Shown: positions 1-46,609 of the stretch, piece by piece | Layout of the letters: the number at the start of each line of letters is the position of its first letter | Numbering within the stretch: position 1 is the first letter of the stretch | IMG/VR virus record: IMGVR_UViG_3300048999_000129 | Coordinates: 1 to 46,678 of that record | From: a virus | Direction: 5' to 3' (one strand) | Length of the DNA stretch: 46,678 nt | Notes under the pieces: model-generated | What the model was told of the DNA's origin: nothing | The model's input: the letters and a program-made list of their open reading frames with translations, nothing else | The model's database searches: none | Program-made: the position numbers and the translations under genes

Positions 1-64
1 AGCAGCTCCGATTGCCTACGGGTAAATCGTCAGGGACCTACCTATCTAGTTCAGTTTTGTACGA

Positions 65-336
65 GGTGACAGGTGATGACACCCTGGTGACGGCCTTAGA
101 GGCACTTTTGTCACCCCAAAAATGCCCTCTGACCTGGGCTTTCTTCTTTCTGGTGACAGGGGTGACAGCTTTTTTACAAAGTCTACGCGTGAGAGGGGGT
201 AGTAGAGGTAGTGGAGAGGCTCCGGCGCTGTGAGCTGTAGGACTTTTGGAAAAAGGTGTCACCCGCGTCATTTCGGACAACTTCGCAGGTCAGAGGCCTA
301 AAATCGGTGACACGAGGTTGTCACCAGGGTGTCACC
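65..336. other. Candidate replication origin: GGTGACA iteron cluster
   Basis: No gene is credible in 1-396. The heptamer GGTGACA occurs on the plus strand at 65, 152, 161 and 306 and on the minus strand (TGTCACC) at 109, 257, 319 and 330, with a variant GGTGACG at 86. Two minus copies sit inside the 9-bp palindrome GGTGTCACC (255 and 328). Short A/T runs (about 117-123, 168-180, 250-254) lie between copies. Clustered repeats in both orientations beside a P4-family primase-helicase gene are what an iteron origin looks like; the P4 alpha protein is known to bind similar repeats of the GGTGAACA type (from memory). Origin function is inference. Bases 1-64 show nothing I can assign. Confidence 0.6.
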
Positions 337-344
337 AGACGCCG

Positions 345-378
345 AAGGGCCCCGCCGGCGTGTGCCAACGGGGCCCTT
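345..378 (-). terminator. Hairpin terminator after the primase gene
   Basis: Perfect 10-bp arms AAGGGCCCCG (345-354) and CGGGGCCCTT (369-378) around a 14-nt loop. It lies just past the stop of the leftward primase gene (397). There is no long U tract on the minus strand, which is common in actinobacterial terminators. It separates primase transcription from the iteron cluster. Confidence 0.7.
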
Positions 379-396
379 ATCGGGTCTAGACCAGAA

Positions 397-2856
397 CTAC
401 GCTTCGTCGAAGAAGGCGCGCTGCTGCAGCGGCTGCAGCTGTAGGTAGAACCCCCGGAAGTGCTTGTTGCGGTCCTTCGGGAAGCCCTTCGTCTCGAGCT
501 CCAGGCTGAGCGCCATCTGCGACATCGGCCGCCCGCCGCGCGACTCGGCCCAGTTGCGGTAGTCGGCGTACAGATTCTTGGACGACTCCAGCGCGTCGGA
601 CTTGGTGGTGCGCTCATCCATCCACTCAGCGACCTCATCCTCGTCGCGGAGGTACTTGGCAGTGTCGGCCAGGACCTGGGCAGGAACTCCCAGCCCACTC
701 GGCCGGCCCGTCTTCCGGTTCGGACCCTGCGTCTCCCGCAGTAGCGTCCACCACTGGACGGCTCCGGCGATGAGCCAGGCCAGCACGCCTTCCTTCTCGG
801 CGGCCAGGATCTTCTCGGCGAGCTCCAGGTCGATCTTCTCGTCCGCGATGGTGATGGGCCAGGTGATCTTGTGGATCCGGCGGTTCGTCGACTTCGAGCT
901 CACGATGTGCGGCAGGTGGTTCGTCGCCATGTGGATCTTGCCGATGATGTTCAGGTCCTTGTTCTCCTGGTAGAGCCGCCGGGCCGTCACCTTGTCGCCG
1001 CCAGTGATGTTCTTGATCAGGACGTCGCTGAGCCGGGCGCCCCGGGCGGTCTCGGACATGAGCAGCGTGCGCGGGCCGGCGAGGCTCGCGACGTGGGTGG
1101 AGTGCTGCTCGTTCTTCGACTCGATCAGGGCCTTCGGGTCGGCCCCGCCCGCGTATCCGCCGAGCACCCGGCCGACGATGTCCATCAGCACTGACTTGCC
1201 GTTGTTGGTCTCGCCGTGGTGGATGAACATCAGCTGCTCGATCGTCGTACCGGTGATCGAATAGCCCATCACGCGCTGCAGGTACTCGCGCACCTCCTGG
1301 TCAGGCATCGACTCGGCCAGGTACTTCTGGAAGAGCGGCGCCTTGGCCTCGGGGTCATACTTGACCGGGGCGGCCGTGGCGATCATCTCGTCCTTCGTGC
1401 CCTTGCGGAGCTCACCCGTGCGGAGATCGACGGTGCCATTGAGCACGCCGAGCAGGTACGGGTCCGAGTCGAACTCGGTCTCGCTCTTGGTCAGCGCCTC
1501 GGACATCTGCGCCGTACGGGCGGCCGCGCTGTACTTGCCCGCCATCTTCTGGCTGGTGACCCAGTTGAAGAACTTCTTCCGGGGAGAGGTCTCCCCCTCG
1601 GCGGCCGTGTCGGCGTAGTGCTCCTCCTCGAGCTGGTAGGCGACGTTCAGCGCTTGGACAGCAGCGTTCTCACCGGCGCCGTCGGACTTCTCCCAGTGGA
1701 CCCCGTTGTACCGGACCCAGACCTTGGCGTCCTGAAGCCAGAAGAGGTTCCCCTTGGCCCACGCGGCGATGCGCTGCGAGTTGCCGTAGTCGTTCTGCTC
1801 GTACTGCGGCCATACCGTGAGCGCCGGCTCCGCTCCGGGAGCGTCACCGGCCTCACCGAAAGGGCGGCTGGGCGAATACGGCTCCTCCTCGAACCAGGCG
1901 TCATCCTCCTTCAGATCGAACGGGGGCGTGCGCGGCGTGACATTCTCGCCCTCGAGCGCTCGGACGAACTTCGACAGCCCGTTACCGAGGGTGAACTTTG
2001 CGTCGTTCGGCAGGTGATCGACCAGGTCGGCCGCAACCTTCTCCGCGTCCACGTTGCACCAGTCGGCCTTCACGAGGCTGGCCAGCGAGGCGGTCAGCGC
2101 GAGCGTGCTCTCCTCCCAGCCGCCGTGACGACCCCGGTAGTCCTCCTCCCAGGTCTTCATCTCGTCGAGCTCGTCGTACGTCGCGGCGATGGCGTTCTCG
2201 ACGTAGGCATCGACCCGCGCCTTGACCCGGTCATCGAGCGCGGCATATGCCTCGGACTCGACGTTGCGCGCCTCGGCGACCTTCCTGGTCAAACCCTCCA
2301 GCCAGGAGGTGGGAAGCCACGGGAGCTCCTCGACGTCCGGCAGTGTCAGGATCGAACGAGCCTCGTGCGCTGAGTGCCAGCGATACTCACCGCCTTCGGG
2401 GTGAATCGAGCCGGGGCCGACCAGGTAGCGATGGCCATGCTGGATGATGTCGACGTCCGGGCCAATGCCGGCCGAGTCGAGGTTTCCATAGAGCTTCGTG
2501 CCAGCGGGAACCTGAAAGAGCCGGATCCCGGACGGAGTCTCGGGGCGCGCGGTCAGACGACCGAGGATCGGGAGCTTGCCGAACATTTCGATGGCGTTCC
2601 GGATCGTGTCGGCGCCGACCTTCTCGTCGTACTGGTCGATGTCGATGCCGATGACGCCGTCGGGCAGCCGGATCGCGATATTGGAGTCTTCGGGGACGGT
2701 TTCGATCCAGGCTTGGATATCAGCGCCCGAGGCCATCGGCGCGAGACTGCCGGTCCAGCCGTCCGGCGGCGGGAACTTCTTGCCGGGAGGGAGAGGTAGC
2801 GGAGAGTAGCCGGACTTCTTCAGCTTGTGAGCTTCTCCGGCGTAGATCATGATCAA
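397..2856 (-). CDS. Bifunctional primase-polymerase / P4-family D5-type helicase
   Basis: An 819-residue protein. The N-terminal part is an archaeo-eukaryotic-type primase-polymerase: GIDID at residues 70-74 supplies the metal-binding acidic pair, with PSGIRLF near 108-114 and GHRYLVGPGSIHP near 141-153 providing the conserved Ser and His. The C-terminal part is a D5_N/P4-type superfamily 3 helicase with Walker A GETNNGKS near 547-555. Known members prime and unwind DNA at phage or plasmid origins; the adjacent iteron cluster suggests a cis target. The start is TTG at 2856, overlapping the upstream TGA by four bases, with AGGAGG about five bases before it; an ATG at 2850 is the alternative but has a long spacing of about 11. 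It is probably co-transcribed with the HTH gene from the leaderless promoter at 3076-3105. Confidence 0.93.
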   Translation of the reverse strand: MIMIYAGEAHKLKKSGYSPLPLPPGKKFPPPDGWTGSLAPMASGADIQAWIETVPEDSNIAIRLPDGVIGIDIDQYDEKVGADTIRNAIEMFGKLPILGRLTARPETPSGIRLFQVPAGTKLYGNLDSAGIGPDVDIIQHGHRYLVGPGSIHPEGGEYRWHSAHEARSILTLPDVEELPWLPTSWLEGLTRKVAEARNVESEAYAALDDRVKARVDAYVENAIAATYDELDEMKTWEEDYRGRHGGWEESTLALTASLASLVKADWCNVDAEKVAADLVDHLPNDAKFTLGNGLSKFVRALEGENVTPRTPPFDLKEDDAWFEEEPYSPSRPFGEAGDAPGAEPALTVWPQYEQNDYGNSQRIAAWAKGNLFWLQDAKVWVRYNGVHWEKSDGAGENAAVQALNVAYQLEEEHYADTAAEGETSPRKKFFNWVTSQKMAGKYSAAARTAQMSEALTKSETEFDSDPYLLGVLNGTVDLRTGELRKGTKDEMIATAAPVKYDPEAKAPLFQKYLAESMPDQEVREYLQRVMGYSITGTTIEQLMFIHHGETNNGKSVLMDIVGRVLGGYAGGADPKALIESKNEQHSTHVASLAGPRTLLMSETARGARLSDVLIKNITGGDKVTARRLYQENKDLNIIGKIHMATNHLPHIVSSKSTNRRIHKITWPITIADEKIDLELAEKILAAEKEGVLAWLIAGAVQWWTLLRETQGPNRKTGRPSGLGVPAQVLADTAKYLRDEDEVAEWMDERTTKSDALESSKNLYADYRNWAESRGGRPMSQMALSLELETKGFPKDRNKHFRGFYLQLQPLQQRAFFDEA

Positions 2857-3068
2857 CGTGCCCTCCTACGGGTGTTGGCTGTCTTCTTCCAGTCCTGGAT
2901 GTCGCTGAGCAGCCAGGCTGGACCCATCTTGAAGGTCCGGATCGGCGCGGGGAAGCCCCGGCTTCGAGTCCAGGACAGGGCGGTCGAGTAGGACAGGTCG
3001 AAGTGAGAGGCGATCTCGGCAAGACCGAGGACGTCGTTCAGGTCGACGATCAGTTTCGGAGTAGTCAT
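2853..3068 (-). CDS. Small helix-turn-helix DNA-binding protein (AlpA/excisionase-like)
   Basis: 71 residues. The segment LAEIASHFDLSYSTALSWTR (about 16-35) is a winged-HTH/MerR-like helix pair, followed by GFPAPIRTFKMGPAWLLSDIQDW, the usual wing of AlpA/excisionase-type proteins; the end is very basic (KKTANTRRRAR). It sits directly upstream of, and overlaps, the primase gene. The ATG at 3068 lies seven bases past a TATCGT box and has no ribosome site, so the message is probably leaderless. It may regulate the divergent promoters or assist replication; there is no integrase here for a real excisionase to serve. HTH fold fairly sure, role unknown. Confidence 0.8.
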   Translation of the reverse strand: MTTPKLIVDLNDVLGLAEIASHFDLSYSTALSWTRSRGFPAPIRTFKMGPAWLLSDIQDWKKTANTRRRAR

Positions 3069-3075
3069 GAGGCTG

Positions 3076-3105
3076 ACGATACACAGTTGTTTATCCGGAT
3101 GCCAA
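3076..3105 (-). promoter_or_regulatory. Leftward promoter for HTH-primase genes
   Basis: On the minus strand TTGGCA (3100-3105), an 18-bp spacer, then TATCGT (3076-3081). Seven bases separate the -10 box from the ATG at 3068, so the transcript should start at or next to the A of the start codon. Its -35 box lies five bases from the -35 box of the opposing promoter. Confidence 0.65.
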
Positions 3106-3110
3106 CTCGT

Positions 3111-3139
3111 TTGACAAAGTGATTTGGCCGAAGTATCTT
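3111..3139 (+). promoter_or_regulatory. Rightward consensus promoter for the helicase gene
   Basis: TTGACA (3111-3116), a 17-bp spacer, TATCTT (3134-3139): the best sigma-70-type match in the window. The ATG of the helicase gene begins seven bases downstream at 3147 with no Shine-Dalgarno sequence, predicting a leaderless mRNA. Confidence 0.75.
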
Positions 3140-3146
3140 TTGACTC

Positions 3147-4733
3147 ATGACTGACACCGAGCTCACTAGACTACTCGCCCACATCGGCTACGACCAGCGC
3201 CCCCAGCAGACTGCTCTCTTCGAGCACCTGAAGACGCTCGACCACGACGGCGTCATCGCCCAGGCCGGCACGGGCGTCGGCAAGTCCATCGCCGTTCTCG
3301 CTGCTGCCGCTCACTTGCATGATCACTACGGCAAGCAGGTCCTGATCGTCACGCCGACGCGCGTGCTCATGGACCAGTACATGAAGTCGGACGCGATCAG
3401 CGCCTCGTCCTGCTTCTGCCTGTCCATCGAAGAGCTCCGGGGCAAGGCCTGGTACGCCTGCGAGCAGGGCGGCGACGGTACGGCGGAGAACGGCGGCTGC
3501 CCGGGATACGAGGGAGGTTGCGAAGCGACCGCCTGGGCCGAAGGGAAGCACTGGTGCGAGTACCGCGACCAGAAGAAGCGCGCCCAGGAAGCCGACATCG
3601 TCATCACGAACACGGACATGCTGATCGTGAACGACCGGCTCGTCCCCGGCGAGTTCTTCGACCCCGAAGGCCCGCTGCTGGTCGACGAGGCGCACCAGCT
3701 CGAGCCGAAGCTGCGCGATTTCTCCGACCGGTCACTCCGTGCGGACTGGCTGCAGAAGTGGAGCGAGGCCGGCGCCGAGCTGTCGCGCTACATCCGCTCG
3801 TTCGGCCGCGACGCCGCCAAGGTCCCGCTCGATGGCCCGATCGCGAACAAACTTCGGGCGTTCATGGAGTCGGTCGACACCCAGGGCGATGCGGGCGTGC
3901 CGGAGCGCGTGAAGAAGATGTACGAGTCGGCGGCCAAGATTCTCGCGCGTGTAAACGTACCCTCCGAGAACGCGCTCGTCTGGTGTGACGGAGAGTCACT
4001 GAAGCTGAGCTGGATTGACATCGCTGCCTCGGCGCGCGAGTTGCTCCAGGCCCGTCCGTTCGGGTTGGTCAGCGCGACGATCCCGAAGTCGATGCCGAGC
4101 TCCCTAGGCGTGGCCGACGCGCGCATCGTGGACGTAGGGCACCCGTTCGACTACGCCAAGCAAGCGACGCTCTCGATCAGCCAGATCAACGGCGCTTACC
4201 AGTACGCCAAGGAACGGTCGAACCTGACCAAACGGGCCGGTGAGCTCGAGGACCAGGTCCTGGCGTCCGGTGGCGGCGCACTGCTGCTCTTCTCCAGCTT
4301 CAAGGACCTGGAGGCGGTATACGAGGAGACCTTCGCCGCCTTCAAGGCGGCCGGCCTGACGATCCTGAAGCAGGACGGCGTGCTCGACAACAAGCTACTC
4401 GGGGAGGCCTTCAAGCGTGACGGCAGCGCAGTACTGTTCGGCTCCGAGAGCTTCGCGACCGGCTTCGACGCGCCCGGCGACGCCCTGCGTTTCGTGGGGA
4501 TCTGGAAGCTGCCGTACCCCGGAAAAGACCCCGTTTCCGAAGCGCTCATGAAGCGATTTTACAATCGCTACAACGACCTGATGCTCACTCGCGTCACCCA
4601 GGCCGTCGGCCGCCTGATCCGTACCACATCCGATAAGGGCCACGTCTGGATCGGCGACTCCCGCGCGGAGGGCAAGATCCTCGGCGACGGCGGCCTGATG
4701 ACCTCTCACCTGAAAGAGTTCCGCCGAGTCTGA
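3147..4733 (+). CDS. DinG/XPD-type iron-sulfur DNA helicase
   Basis: 528 residues. Walker A GTGVGKS at 41-47, DEAH box LLVDEAHQ around 177-184, and motif VI QAVGRLIRT near 485-493. Cysteines C105, C118, C125 and C137 between motifs I and II fit the 4Fe-4S cluster of the XPD/DinG superfamily 2 group, which unwinds DNA 5' to 3'. It faces away from the primase gene across a shared promoter region and is the first gene of the rightward arm, so it is likely an early replication or repair function rather than structural. A copy of GTGTAAACG lies inside it at 3949-3957. Family call is solid; its exact task in the phage is inferred. Confidence 0.88.
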   Translation: MTDTELTRLLAHIGYDQRPQQTALFEHLKTLDHDGVIAQAGTGVGKSIAVLAAAAHLHDHYGKQVLIVTPTRVLMDQYMKSDAISASSCFCLSIEELRGKAWYACEQGGDGTAENGGCPGYEGGCEATAWAEGKHWCEYRDQKKRAQEADIVITNTDMLIVNDRLVPGEFFDPEGPLLVDEAHQLEPKLRDFSDRSLRADWLQKWSEAGAELSRYIRSFGRDAAKVPLDGPIANKLRAFMESVDTQGDAGVPERVKKMYESAAKILARVNVPSENALVWCDGESLKLSWIDIAASARELLQARPFGLVSATIPKSMPSSLGVADARIVDVGHPFDYAKQATLSISQINGAYQYAKERSNLTKRAGELEDQVLASGGGALLLFSSFKDLEAVYEETFAAFKAAGLTILKQDGVLDNKLLGEAFKRDGSAVLFGSESFATGFDAPGDALRFVGIWKLPYPGKDPVSEALMKRFYNRYNDLMLTRVTQAVGRLIRTTSDKGHVWIGDSRAEGKILGDGGLMTSHLKEFRRV

Positions 4734-28725: not shown

Positions 28726-28774
28726 GGGCCCCGGTACCATGGGTGACAACACGTCATCTACGATATCGGGGCCC
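28726..28774 (+). terminator. Hairpin between tail and lysis blocks, with a -10-like box in the loop
   Basis: Arms GGGCCCCG (28726-28733) and CGGGGCCC (28767-28774) flank a 33-nt loop that holds TACCAT (28735-28740) and one stray GGTGACA (28742). It could be a weak terminator or a leader structure that hides the start of the gene at 28780. Confidence 0.5.
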
Positions 28775-32386: not shown

Positions 32387-33268
32387 CTAGCCGCGCTGGC
32401 GTGCTCGCTTGGCAGCGATATCAGCCTCTCGCTCGCGGGCCAGGCGCAGGCGGATCTCCCACACCTGTGGGTCGAGTCGATCTGGCACCGCATGGAAGAT
32501 GTCCCGTGGCCCCTCGTAGCCCTCAGGGAAGCGCCAGAAGTCCCGGTCGGAGTAGTGATTCTCCCAGCACGCGCGCGCCCGGCGCTCCAGGGCTTCCTGA
32601 GCCATCTTCGCGGAGACCTCGGCCGACTGCATCGCCGCTGGCATGATCGTGCTCGCGATCCCGCGTGTGGTCGGCCCCGCAGTCGCCACCTCGACCGGCA
32701 TGGGCAGGCCGGCCCGCATCCTCTCGTACGGCGGAGACTCGAGGTAGGTCACGATCCGTCGAGCCATAGCCAGGTCCTTGATGTTGCCCAGGACGTCATG
32801 GTTGCAGGATCGCTCACCGGAGCAGAGCAGACCGCGCACAATGTCGGTCTCGTGGTCGTGGTCGACGGCCAGGCGCCTCTTGAGCGGCCGCTTCCGGCAG
32901 ATGTAGCAGCGCCCCTCCTGGTAGTTGTAGATCGCCAGGTAGGTGTCGTACGAGATCTTGTACGTGCTGGCCAGGTGCGAGCTGTAGTTCGCGTGGCTCT
33001 GGCAGGCACGGCACTTGGCGCCCTGGGTGTACCAGATGGGCACCATGAACTGGCAGCCCGAGCAGAAGCGACGTCCGGCCGGCCAGGCGGAAGCGGGTAC
33101 GGTCGCGCGGACCTCGTGAGACTTCAGCGCGAGCTTGCGCCGCGACATGGCGTACTCGATCTGCTCGTCGATCGGTAGCCGCTCGACCTTGTGCCAGTAG
33201 CAGAAGTGCGACGGCAAGTCCTTCTTGCCGTCGCATCCTGGCTGTTTACACGGTTTCGGAGCTGGCAT
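32387..33268 (-). CDS. Recombination endonuclease VII
   Basis: 293 residues. A His-Me (endonuclease VII) core lies at about 121-163: CYICRKRP, DHDHETDIVRGLLC and CNHDVLGNI, with the metal-binding and catalytic residues in DHDHE. Extra N-terminal Cys/His clusters (CKQPGCDG..HFCYWH; CSGCQ..CRACQSH) look like zinc fingers. The enzyme resolves branched DNA before packaging. ATG at 33268 is chosen because GGAG lies seven bases upstream; an earlier start at 33286 has no site. It overlaps the preceding gene by 23 bases and contains a one-mismatch dispersed 9-mer at 33243. Confidence 0.9.
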   Translation of the reverse strand: MPAPKPCKQPGCDGKKDLPSHFCYWHKVERLPIDEQIEYAMSRRKLALKSHEVRATVPASAWPAGRRFCSGCQFMVPIWYTQGAKCRACQSHANYSSHLASTYKISYDTYLAIYNYQEGRCYICRKRPLKRRLAVDHDHETDIVRGLLCSGERSCNHDVLGNIKDLAMARRIVTYLESPPYERMRAGLPMPVEVATAGPTTRGIASTIMPAAMQSAEVSAKMAQEALERRARACWENHYSDRDFWRFPEGYEGPRDIFHAVPDRLDPQVWEIRLRLAREREADIAAKRARQRG

Positions 33269-33569
33269 TCTGGAGCTCCAGGTCACAGCGCCGTACGATC
33301 TGGACGAACATCGCGGCCGCCTGGATCGCCTCGGCCCGCACCAGTGCCGGGTCTTCCTCGGCGAAGCACTCGAAGACCTCCTCGGCTGCGATATGCATCC
33401 AGGTCACCGTGTTGGATCGCGACGCCAGCTCGGTCGACTCTTTCGCCCGCTGGGCGGCCTCGGCATAGATCAAACTGGTTCCCAGGGGGAGGTGCATCTG
33501 TTCGCCGTGCAGATCTGTCGACCGGTGCACCTCGGCCTCGATCTCGTCCAGGATGTCGTTGTACTCCAT
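33246..33569 (-). CDS. MazG-like nucleotide pyrophosphohydrolase-related protein
   Basis: 107 residues. TVTWMHIAAEEVFECFAEEDPALVRAEAIQAAAMFVQIV shows the EExxE and downstream E helices of the MazG-like all-alpha NTP pyrophosphatase superfamily, in the form common to Streptomyces proteins where Gln-Ala replaces the usual acidic pair. Such enzymes cleave non-canonical or excess NTPs. It sits with other nucleotide-pool genes. The loss of the second acidic site could mean altered activity. Confidence 0.6.
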   Translation of the reverse strand: MEYNDILDEIEAEVHRSTDLHGEQMHLPLGTSLIYAEAAQRAKESTELASRSNTVTWMHIAAEEVFECFAEEDPALVRAEAIQAAAMFVQIVRRCDLELQNASSETV

Positions 33570-43487: not shown

Positions 43488-43606
43488 CACTTACCGCCCT
43501 TCTTGGCATCCTTCTCGGCCTGGATTCGTTTGGCCTCTTCGGCGACCTTGCGGCGCCGCTCGGCCTTCTCTTGCTCCAACTTCTTGAACCGTTCGTCGTC
43601 GGCCAT
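43487..43606 (-). CDS. 39-residue Lys/Glu-rich helical protein
   Basis: ATG 43606 overlaps the kinase-phosphatase stop (ATGA). Sequence ADDERFKKLEQEKAERRRKV then a further charged helix ending KKGGK; a single amphipathic helix. Function unknown. Confidence 0.55.
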   Translation of the reverse strand: MADDERFKKLEQEKAERRRKVAEEAKRIQAEKDAKKGGK

Positions 43607-44565
43607 CAGAACGGGCCCGGCGCGACCTGGAGACAGGTGATCCCCAGCGATCGCCACATCTCGACGACCTGGTCGCGGTCGTCCAGCACGAACTGGACGT
43701 CGTAGTAGTCGCGGATATGCTCGTCGAACAGCGCCAGTTTGACCACCGAGTCCTTCGGCTGCTGCACGCCGTCCGGCAGTTCCGGGCGCATGTAGAGCGG
43801 GTAGACCTCGGGGTTGTAACCCAGCGAACTCAGCCACTTCTCGGTCTGCGGGCGGCAACTCTCGACCCGGCCGGACATGAAGATGACCTCCAGGTCCTGC
43901 CTGGTCCAGCGACTGAAGCCAGTAACCACCCAGTCGACCAGGTCCACGATCGGCCGGTTGGGCAGGTCCTCGCCGACGCGGTGGTACTCGTGCGGGCCCC
44001 GGCCGTTCATCAACGCGAAGGTCCCATCGAGATCGACGATGATCGCCGACGGGCGGCCCGGGACCGGCACGTACGCACGGCCGAGGTCCACGCCGCCTTC
44101 CGGCTTCGGTGGGTTGGCAGGCATCGGCAGCGGGTAGGGCTTGCCAGCCACGAAGCGGGCCTGCTTCAGGATGACGCCCTTACCGACGCGCTCTTCGACC
44201 GGCCGATCGGCGTCGCGCTGGATGCACTCGGCGACCGGGACGTTGGTCAGGTCGACGACGTCGAAGTCAGCTCCGACCGACTCGGCGATGGCCAGCCAGC
44301 GGCGAGCGTACTGCTGCCGAAGGTTCATGTCGTCCACGATCACGTCGCGGCCGGCCTCCAGGAGTTTCCGGACCGTCGACTCCTGGGCGCTGGTGATGAC
44401 GTTCTCGGTGGCCTGGTCGTAGGCGTACGTTCCCCACGGCGCCAGCATGCGGCGCAGGTCGTCCCGGTTGACCCGGTTGCGGCCGGGGGCCTCGGTGATC
44501 CAGCGCTTGGCGTAGGTGGTCTTGCCGGAGCCGGGCAGTCCCCGGGTGATGGTCAGCGTGCTCAT
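43606..44565 (-). CDS. Polynucleotide 5'-kinase / 3'-phosphatase (T4 Pnkp-like)
   Basis: 319 residues from ATG 44565. N-terminal kinase: GLPGSGKTT (9-17; K15, T16) and RVNRDDLRR with D35 and R38, at the same numbers as T4 Pnkp K15, S16, D35, R38. C-terminal HAD phosphatase: VDLDGT with D178 and D180 and a distal FVLDDRDQV. T4 Pnkp converts 2',3'-cyclic-phosphate/5'-OH tRNA breaks to ligatable ends. With the RNA ligase at 45140 it forms a repair pair. Residues 37-170 show the usual kinase lid and linker. ATGA overlap with gene 44562. Confidence 0.92.
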   Translation of the reverse strand: MSTLTITRGLPGSGKTTYAKRWITEAPGRNRVNRDDLRRMLAPWGTYAYDQATENVITSAQESTVRKLLEAGRDVIVDDMNLRQQYARRWLAIAESVGADFDVVDLTNVPVAECIQRDADRPVEERVGKGVILKQARFVAGKPYPLPMPANPPKPEGGVDLGRAYVPVPGRPSAIIVDLDGTFALMNGRGPHEYHRVGEDLPNRPIVDLVDWVVTGFSRWTRQDLEVIFMSGRVESCRPQTEKWLSSLGYNPEVYPLYMRPELPDGVQQPKDSVVKLALFDEHIRDYYDVQFVLDDRDQVVEMWRSLGITCLQVAPGPF

Positions 44566-44765
44566 GGAAGAATCAGGTCCTCTCTGATCAGCTCGAGAGC
44601 CTTCTCTCGAGCGACATGGTCGGTGGAGATCCGTTCCTCGGCGACCGCGACGCGGTCCTCGATCGGGATGGTGTGCCACGGACTACGGTAGTCGCGCTCG
44701 ATCTGCCTGGCAATAGCCCGTCCCACCATCTGGGCAACTACGGCCAAAGCCGCACTGTCATCCAT
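44562..44765 (-). CDS. Small helical protein before the kinase-phosphatase
   Basis: 67 residues, ATGA overlaps on both sides. SAALAVVAQMVGRAIARQIERDY...AVAEERISTDHVAREKALELIREDL: two helices, acidic C-terminal half. No family recognised. Confidence 0.58.
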   Translation of the reverse strand: MDDSAALAVVAQMVGRAIARQIERDYRSPWHTIPIEDRVAVAEERISTDHVAREKALELIREDLILP

Positions 44766-45139: not shown

Positions 45140-46315
45140 TCAGTCCTCCTTCGGAGCGTTCGATGGGGTGAGGCCGGCCTCGGGCTTGGCCTGCGCCCAG
45201 AGCTTGGCCTTGATGTCCTTGCCGTCGAGCAGGGCCCAGTAGGCCCACTGGTCGTCGCCAGCCATCGCGAACAGCGGAGCCAGGGCGGCACGCTCAGTGC
45301 GACTGACCGACCACTCCTCGTCGACCAGGTTGATGACGCCTGCCTTGAAGGCCTCGTTCATCATCGCCTGGTAGCTGACCTTGAAGTTCGACCAGCGACG
45401 CTTCACGCCGAGCTCCAGTCGAGTCCAGACCTCCATGACCCAGGGATGGAATTCGTCCGGCAGCGGCTCGATGGTGGCCGCGAGGGTCTCGCCAGCGACG
45501 ATCGCCTCCCAGACGCGCCGCTCGGACAGACCGGTGACGAGGCGGTGCAGCCGGACGTAGTCCTCCTGCTTCAGCTTCACCATCTTCTTGCCGCCTTCGG
45601 TCGCGATGACCATGCCTTCGCGGTTCTCGCGGGGCGAAGCGACCAGGGCGTCGGCCAGCGTCGTACGCGCGTCCAGCAGCTGCACGGTAGGGCCTACCCA
45701 GCCGAGGTGTCGCTGCGCCGCGAACGGGTCGTAGACGTAGCCGTCTTCCAGGTCGACCGAGCCCAGCAGGAACAGGTCGTCCCGGCCACGGTAGTCGACG
45801 ACGATCCGGTTCTCGGGGTAGATGATCTCGAACAGGAATGTCTCGTCGTCGGCCGAGTGGTGCTTCTCGCGCGGGTCCTCGGGGCCGGACAGGTCGTCGT
45901 ACTTGGTCTGGAGCAGGCGCGTCGCATGGAGCGCCTGGCCGGAAGTAAAACTGCCCCGCGTCGCGATGGACAGCGTGCCGGAGTTCGGCTGCCGATAGAG
46001 GATGCCGAGCGACCCGTCGAGCTTGTCGAGCGTGTAAACGGTCTCCGCCAGACCGATCTGGTCGGCGCCGGCCTGGCCGTGGTTCCAGAACTTCCGGAAC
46101 GGCCGGGCCACGATCTCGCCGTTGTCGGTGTTCCAGATCAGGCCACGGCAGTGGTTCAGCGCGGGGACCTGAGCGAAGATCTCGGGCTTGACCTGCGCCC
46201 GATCGGTGTAGTTCAGCAGGCGCAGCGGTTCGTGCGGGTGCTCGACCTCGCGGACGTACTTGTTCTCCATCAGCCAGGCGAGCTCGTCCATCGGCGCCAG
46301 ATCGTACAAGTGCAT
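45140..46315 (-). CDS. RNA ligase (T4 Rnl1-like)
   Basis: 391 residues, ATG 46315 with AGGAGG five bases upstream. Motif I KLDGS (98-102), nucleophile K98 (T4 Rnl1 K99); upstream RPFRKFWNHGQ (71-81) is the Rnl1-type substrate segment; LFEIIYPENRIVVDY (161-175) is motif III, EGMVI (233-237) motif IV, KMVKLK (244-249) motif V. The C-terminal 140 residues match the all-helical Rnl1 tail. T4 Rnl1 joins cut tRNA anticodon loops after Pnkp healing. First gene of the leftward arm; a GTGTAAACG copy at 46032 encodes Val-Tyr-Thr in antisense frame. Confidence 0.9.
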   Translation of the reverse strand: MHLYDLAPMDELAWLMENKYVREVEHPHEPLRLLNYTDRAQVKPEIFAQVPALNHCRGLIWNTDNGEIVARPFRKFWNHGQAGADQIGLAETVYTLDKLDGSLGILYRQPNSGTLSIATRGSFTSGQALHATRLLQTKYDDLSGPEDPREKHHSADDETFLFEIIYPENRIVVDYRGRDDLFLLGSVDLEDGYVYDPFAAQRHLGWVGPTVQLLDARTTLADALVASPRENREGMVIATEGGKKMVKLKQEDYVRLHRLVTGLSERRVWEAIVAGETLAATIEPLPDEFHPWVMEVWTRLELGVKRRWSNFKVSYQAMMNEAFKAGVINLVDEEWSVSRTERAALAPLFAMAGDDQWAYWALLDGKDIKAKLWAQAKPEAGLTPSNAPKED

Positions 46316-46532: not shown

Positions 46533-46609
46533 TGGTAGGCCCCCAGGGACTCGAACCCTGAACCCCCGGATTAAGAGTCCGGTGCTCTAGCCAATTGAGC
46601 TAGGGGCCC
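46533..46609 (-). tRNA. tRNA-Lys (anticodon CTT)
   Basis: 77 nt on the minus strand. Acceptor GGGCCCC pairs with GGGGCCT; D-arm TAGCTCAATTGGCTAGAGC; anticodon arm CCGGA-CTCTTAA-TCCGG with anticodon CTT; T-arm CAGGG-TTCGAGT-CCCTG. Discriminator A and an encoded CCA (TGG on plus at 46533). It reads AAG, the main Lys codon in this genome. Confidence 0.93.

Follow-up and report, generated by a model that had tools for sequence, protein, structure and literature searches.

The 272 bp at positions 65-336 of the window, which is the whole 46,678-nt stretch of viral DNA that was analysed, very probably constitute a replication origin with a self-encoded initiator. The initiator would be the product of the adjacent primase-helicase gene, binding short repeats (iterons) by a C-terminal winged helix. 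Six features of the sequences and their comparison point to this reading: the clustering of the repeats, their position, their layout, the AT-rich centre, the covariation of the iteron word with the C-terminus of the primase-helicase, and the independence of that word from the AEP primase domain. The initial annotation had proposed an iteron origin read by a neighbouring P4-type primase. The iteron origin and its reading by the adjacent primase-helicase are strongly supported by position, layout and C-terminal covariation, and the assignment of the primase to the P4 type is not supported.

The repeat cluster

Eight exact copies of GGTGACA are found at the positions given in the initial annotation, four on the plus strand (65-71, 152-158, 161-167 and 306-312) and four on the minus strand (109-115, 257-263, 319-325 and 330-336). 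The copies at 152-158 and 161-167 form an inner pair, 9 bp apart. The variant GGTGACG reported at position 86 is present (86-92, plus strand), and a second variant with one mismatch, GATGACA, lies within GGTGATGACACC at 75-81 (plus strand). The single exact copy outside the cluster is at 28742 on the plus strand, as had also been reported. No second GGTGACA cluster was found in the window, which probably lacks part of the genome.

The count of GGTGACA over the whole window is unremarkable, with 9 observed and 6.1 expected. Its clustering is extreme and far beyond chance. When any 7-mer was counted on both strands within 272 bp, the densest reached 8 copies in the window, whereas none exceeded 5 copies in any of 100 dinucleotide shuffles, and the runner-up cluster in the window itself has 5 copies in 350 bp. 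The claim that 65-336 holds no gene was borne out: no convincing gene lies there, the sole ORF of at least 80 aa is an 80-aa ORF with a TTG start at 38-280, and the conservation of the stretch across relatives is not of the coding type. An Rfam search of positions 1-3200 gave no match. The GC skew, which the initial annotation had named as a check, gave no clear origin mark, as is expected where skew follows transcription.

The primase-helicase gene and its neighbours

The cluster adjoins an AEP-helicase gene, as the initial annotation stated, and its position relative to that gene is corrected here. Because the gene (397-2856) is encoded on the minus strand, the repeats are downstream of it. 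They lie just 3' of the stop codon, with a G+C-rich, terminator-like hairpin in between (345-378, minus strand; arms 345-359 and 364-378). The product has 819 aa from a TTG start, with an alternative ATG start at 2850, and combines an AEP primase-polymerase, a D5_N-SF3 helicase and a C-terminal winged helix. The Pfam domains (PF09250, PF08706 and PF19263) are Prim-Pol/AEP at residues 12-174, D5_N at 362-515 and DUF5906/SF3 at 547-660, and the top PHROG match is phrog_1156, DNA primase. The full-length protein matches AsfvPrimPol by profile and by fold, and the D5 and C962R helicases match it by profile, which indicates a D5/SF3-type AAA+ helicase.

The proposed iteron reader is encoded at 433-639 (minus strand), an assignment based on an AlphaFold2 model, Foldseek, Pox_D5 matches and domain covariation. 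The model of residues 690-819 is a winged helix, with a pLDDT of about 82-93 over model residues 51-120 of 130. Its nearest solved structures in Foldseek were the RFX winged helix and AsfvPrimPol, followed by the origin-binding domain of P4 (1KA8), a weaker match with E values of 0.6 by fold and 0.24 by profile. Pox_D5 domain matches were found in the primases of L009 and L028, two relatives of the window phage. The designation "P4-type primase" fails at the N-terminus, which is a Prim-Pol/AEP domain (PF09250), whereas that of P4 alpha is a Toprim domain (PMC4234260). Only the SF3 helicase and the C-terminal winged helix are P4-like.

Directly upstream of the primase gene, and overlapping its start, is a gene for a 71-aa protein with a weak HTH_17 match (2853-3068, minus strand), which is kept in relatives. 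A divergent gene for an SF2-type helicase (DEAD and Helicase_C_2; 3147-4733, plus strand) is syntenic in relatives. The window also encodes a terminase, portal, major head protein and tape measure; the phage is not a satellite or an SCC element.

Several genes elsewhere in the window were recorded. A polynucleotide kinase-phosphatase (43606-44679), a T4-type RNA ligase (45140-46315) and a tRNA-Lys gene (46533-46609), all on the minus strand, are close together and look like a T4-like tRNA repair set, and a further tRNA-like sequence near them is interrupted by the contig end. PADLOC returned no match for the RNA-repair genes or the HTH protein. A recombination endonuclease VII family protein (PF02945) is encoded at 32387-33286 (minus strand).

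The same position in relatives

A search with the window primase alone found no close relatives, and an alignment of seven sequences was too divergent to use. Syntenic IMG/VR contigs were recruited through terminase and helicase queries. The family considered here consists of the members whose sequence covers the gap: the window, L009, L010, L028, L012, L013, L014, L018, L011 and L026. In all ten, a repeat cluster follows closely on the 3' side of the primase stop. The comparison of this gap in related phages, which had been suggested in the initial annotation, thus finds the cluster kept and the words different: GGTGACA, TATGGAGC, GTGGAGGGT, AGTGACCCAA, TGTGACACC (four loci) and GTGTGCCACC (two loci). 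For example, the flanks and spacers of the window and L009 align, but the repeats are replaced by a wholly different word, so all sites changed together.

Seven more distant AEP-helicase loci (L044-L048, L050 and L052) have arrays of 10-14 sites, the first of them 10-32 bp past the primase stop. Cultured phages with a cluster at the 3' end of the primase gene are Labelle (GTGTTACA), Madruga (CTGAAAC), Hawkeye (GCGGAAC), Nocardia phage P3.1 (twelve GGTTAC), Jalebi (GGTAACCG) and Bacillus phage A9Y (GGGTTAA). No repeat cluster was found beside the related primases of L003, L004, L008, TM4, Clayda5 and Visconti. Thus, an iteron cluster 3' of the primase is common and not universal. These loci extend the placement of iterons 3' of the initiator gene to a group of tailed actinophages, and no published description of primase-linked origins was found for these phages in the literature searched.

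Two other arrangements were observed. In L023, repeats (CAAGACACA) and two copies of the conserved box described below lie 5' of the primase rather than 3' (65-342). In L019, a ACTGAACG repeat cluster is downstream of the helicase gene (2113-2400), and the primase is off the contig.

The domain that probably reads the iteron word

Pairs of loci in which the domains have been exchanged are the most informative. L012 and L013 are 15% identical in the AEP domain and 82% identical in the C-terminus, and share the same iteron. L011 and L026 likewise share an iteron, with 17% identity in the AEP domain and 71% in the C-terminus. The reverse is seen for L012 and L026, which are 81% identical in the AEP domain, 40% in the C-terminus, and differ in their iteron. 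In Mantel tests over 10 loci, C-terminal identity was the best correlate of iteron similarity (r 0.64, p 0.002) and AEP identity the weakest (r 0.19, p 0.053). Identity in the linker and in the helicase domain also tracks iteron similarity (r 0.56 and 0.59, 10 loci), and the swap pairs therefore carry more of the argument than the Mantel test does.

The cultured sister phages Madruga and Labelle provide a further case. Their primases are nearly the same in the AEP region and most of the helicase: identity is 98-100% in residues 1-240 and 301-420, 100% in 601-720 and 93% in 721-780. Identity falls in the C-terminus to 61% over 781-840 and 46% over 841-900, and the iterons differ; there is also a second, milder dip (74-88%) at 421-600. 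At the level of sequence, these comparisons show that the iteron word follows the C-terminal domain and not the AEP primase domain. They provide sequence-level evidence for which domain of an AEP-SF3 primase-helicase reads the origin, and as natural cases they are unusually clear evidence that reader and sites switch in a coordinated way. Both phages were cultured on M. smegmatis, which makes the recognition code directly testable. Concerted switching also poses the problem of how specificity can change jointly in an initiator and at ten or more sites.

Layout of the sites and the AT-rich centre

L010 and L028 have twelve sites, in the order F F F R - F F on one side of the centre and R R - F R R R on the other. 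Most of this order is retained in the window and L009. The window falls short of the full mirror layout, with 10 sites instead of 12, and one of its inner sites is too degenerate to be counted. In each of these four loci, the members of the inner pair lie 8-9 bp from one another. Among the outgroup loci, the spacings of L045 are exactly mirrored (10,11,12,12,21,9 and then 9,21,12,12,11,10) and L046 has 6+6 sites. The four TGTGACACC loci and the two GTGTGCCACC loci have a related, less symmetric order. The central spacer of the window (168-254), a candidate unwinding element, has a GC content of 0.51, and values this low or lower occur in 0.6% of windows. In all 12 loci checked, the GC of the central spacer is in the lowest 0.2-1.9% of windows. 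A mirror layout with an AT-rich centre would suit an unwinding element around which two hexamers are loaded.

The sites are accompanied by a conserved box, CTCTGACCTG, at 127-136 (plus strand), with a second copy at 286-295 (minus strand; CAGGTCAGAG on the plus strand). These are its only occurrences in the window. The box is conserved in all ten family members, each of which has one or two copies of it or of a one-base variant, and unlike the iterons it hardly changes across the family.

An origin recognised by structure is very unlikely. In this reading a large stem-loop or cruciform would be the functional element, as proposed for pRN1, and the repeats would merely reflect its stem. Positions 30-396 of the window do fold as one giant hairpin (z -7.0), as do the corresponding regions of L010 and L028 (z -7.4 and -11.2), and a stem-loop lies 3' of the gene for pRN1 ORF904, a protein with the same domain order (PMC4234260). 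However, L012, L013 and L018 keep their iterons with no whole-region hairpin signal (z 0.3, -0.7 and -1.1), L009 keeps them with a weak one (z -2.2), and the two boxes of L009 and L028 are direct rather than inverted. The stem-loop was thus rejected as a family-wide element, since the hairpin is missing in L012, L013 and L018 and the conserved element is the iterons.

A probable genome end beside the proposed origin

The contigs of the window, L009, L014 and L026 have the same first base, all starting AGCA[GA]CTC. L010, L028, L012, L018 and L011 read on through a conserved ACCG[GA]TC[TG]GCAT just before that motif. The shared start and the relatives that read through it suggest a physical terminus (cos) at position 1 of the window, beside the origin. 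The left-end block at 1-30, AGCAGCTC...TACGGGTAAAT, is conserved in L009, L010 and L028 and is the probable genome end on the cos side. The contigs of the longest relatives reach 59-62 kb, so about 14 kb of the right end of the window is probably missing.

With the cluster only 65-336 bp from this probable end, the repeats could instead be cosB-like packaging sites for the small terminase subunit, and many other actinophage contigs have the CTCTGACCTG box upstream of terL. This reading is very unlikely, slightly more so than the structural one, and the covariation of the iteron word with the primase C-terminus speaks against it. In addition, the cluster of Nocardia phage P3.1 follows the primase in the middle of a 66.6-kb circular record, and the outgroup clusters begin 10-32 bp after the primase stop.

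The small HTH protein was considered as the iteron reader and rejected as unlikely: the protein and its L009 counterpart have 89% identity and share their recognition helix, yet the iterons differ. Its gene beside the primase, and the fact that operators are typically short inverted repeats, would fit an operator cluster, bound by a repressor or some other regulator of transcription close to where the primase operon ends. This is the least probable of the alternatives, given that completely different iterons accompany an unchanged recognition helix, that the cluster is downstream of the nearest gene and around an AT-rich centre, and that relatives carry phased mirror arrays of 10-14 sites.

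The conserved box in Actinomycetota

A 17-bp form of the box, CTCTGACCTGCGGTTTT, extends CTCTGACCTG by CGGTTTT. The 396 unselected Actinomycetota genomes scanned contain it 17 times, and the reversed control string 0 times. No occurrence was found in 298 unselected Pseudomonadota. A scan of GTDB contigs gave at least 117 stretches with CTCTGACCTGCGGTTTT, and among those listed nearly all are from Actinomycetota. The 17-bp box is therefore strongly over-represented in Actinomycetota and their phages. Its sampled contexts (loci in L059-L319) include dnaA, recR, radA, disA, tyrosine integrases, Prim-Pol genes, the 3' ends of tRNA genes and, in phages, positions upstream of terL. In the literature, the sequence of the box gave incidental matches only, such as a primer or a promoter sequence.

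One tentative explanation, which we consider rather unlikely, is that CTCTGACCTG/CTCTGACCTGCGGTTTT serves for the docking of a DNA-binding factor that is conserved in Actinomycetota, acts at replication and repair loci of the chromosome (dnaA, recR and radA/disA) and at mobile-element junctions, and was recruited by actinophage origins beside their fast-switching iterons. Another reading is an att- or packaging-associated site. A conserved box of this kind points to a possible unrecognised host factor. Six Streptomyces or related loci (L190, L217, L236, L252, L272 and L284) have a Prim-Pol gene beside the CTCTGACCTGCGGTTTT box, several with CTTCAGTCGCT repeats around it; the loci with these repeats are possible iteron origins of integrative elements.

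Proposed mechanism and comparison with known systems

For an iteron origin with its own initiator, we infer iteron binding, hexamer loading, melting and the direction of replication as follows. The C-terminal winged helix of the primase-helicase would bind the GGTGACA iterons. The sites, mostly phased at about 9-12 bp, would form two roughly mirror-image half-sites of about six, separated by an AT-rich spacer of 80-100 bp. Each half-site may load one helicase hexamer, probably giving two hexamers in all, after which the spacer would melt and the fused primase would start bidirectional synthesis. The origin specificity of the phage could switch by a joint change of domain and iteron word, because the recognition domain is encoded immediately beside its sites.

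The closest solved structures by sequence and fold are ASFV C962R PrimPol and poxvirus D5, and AsfvPrimPol was solved as a hexamer and a dodecamer. In contrast to the phage studied here, these belong to eukaryotic viruses, and their identity to the window protein is low. We know of no iteron origin in either.

The pRN1 ORF904 protein and the replicon of phage BIP-1 also combine AEP, SF3 and winged helix in one protein, with a gene for a small DNA-binding protein upstream and the origin 3' of the gene (PMC4234260). Recognition of a stem-loop without iterons has been proposed for them (PMC4234260), whereas here iterons are present in every family member and the stem-loop is not family-wide.

P4 alpha has a Toprim primase and a winged helix that binds origin repeats (PMC4234260). 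It shares the order primase-SF3 helicase-winged helix with the window protein, and the weak fold match to 1KA8. The two differ in the primase domain (AEP here, Toprim in P4), and no second crr-like region was identified here. The initial annotation gave GGTGAACA as the P4 iteron, for which no confirmation was found in the literature searched. Even a match to it would say little, given how completely the word differs among close relatives.

The nearest parallels are SaPI Rep and SCCmec Cch2, in which the C-terminal domain reads iterons directly 3' of its own gene (PMC7581432). As here, they have a helicase initiator with a C-terminal DNA-binding domain and short iterons directly 3' of the gene, and two hexamers have been proposed (PMC7581432). 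In SaPI5 Rep, primase and helicase are also fused. The present module differs in its carrier, a tailed actinophage that encodes terminase and capsid proteins of its own, in its extra conserved CTCTGACCTG box, and in words that switch between near relatives. By analogy, the origin-initiator module of the window in all likelihood works like those of SaPI Rep, Cch2 and P4 alpha. It is a known kind of initiator-origin module in a new variant form.
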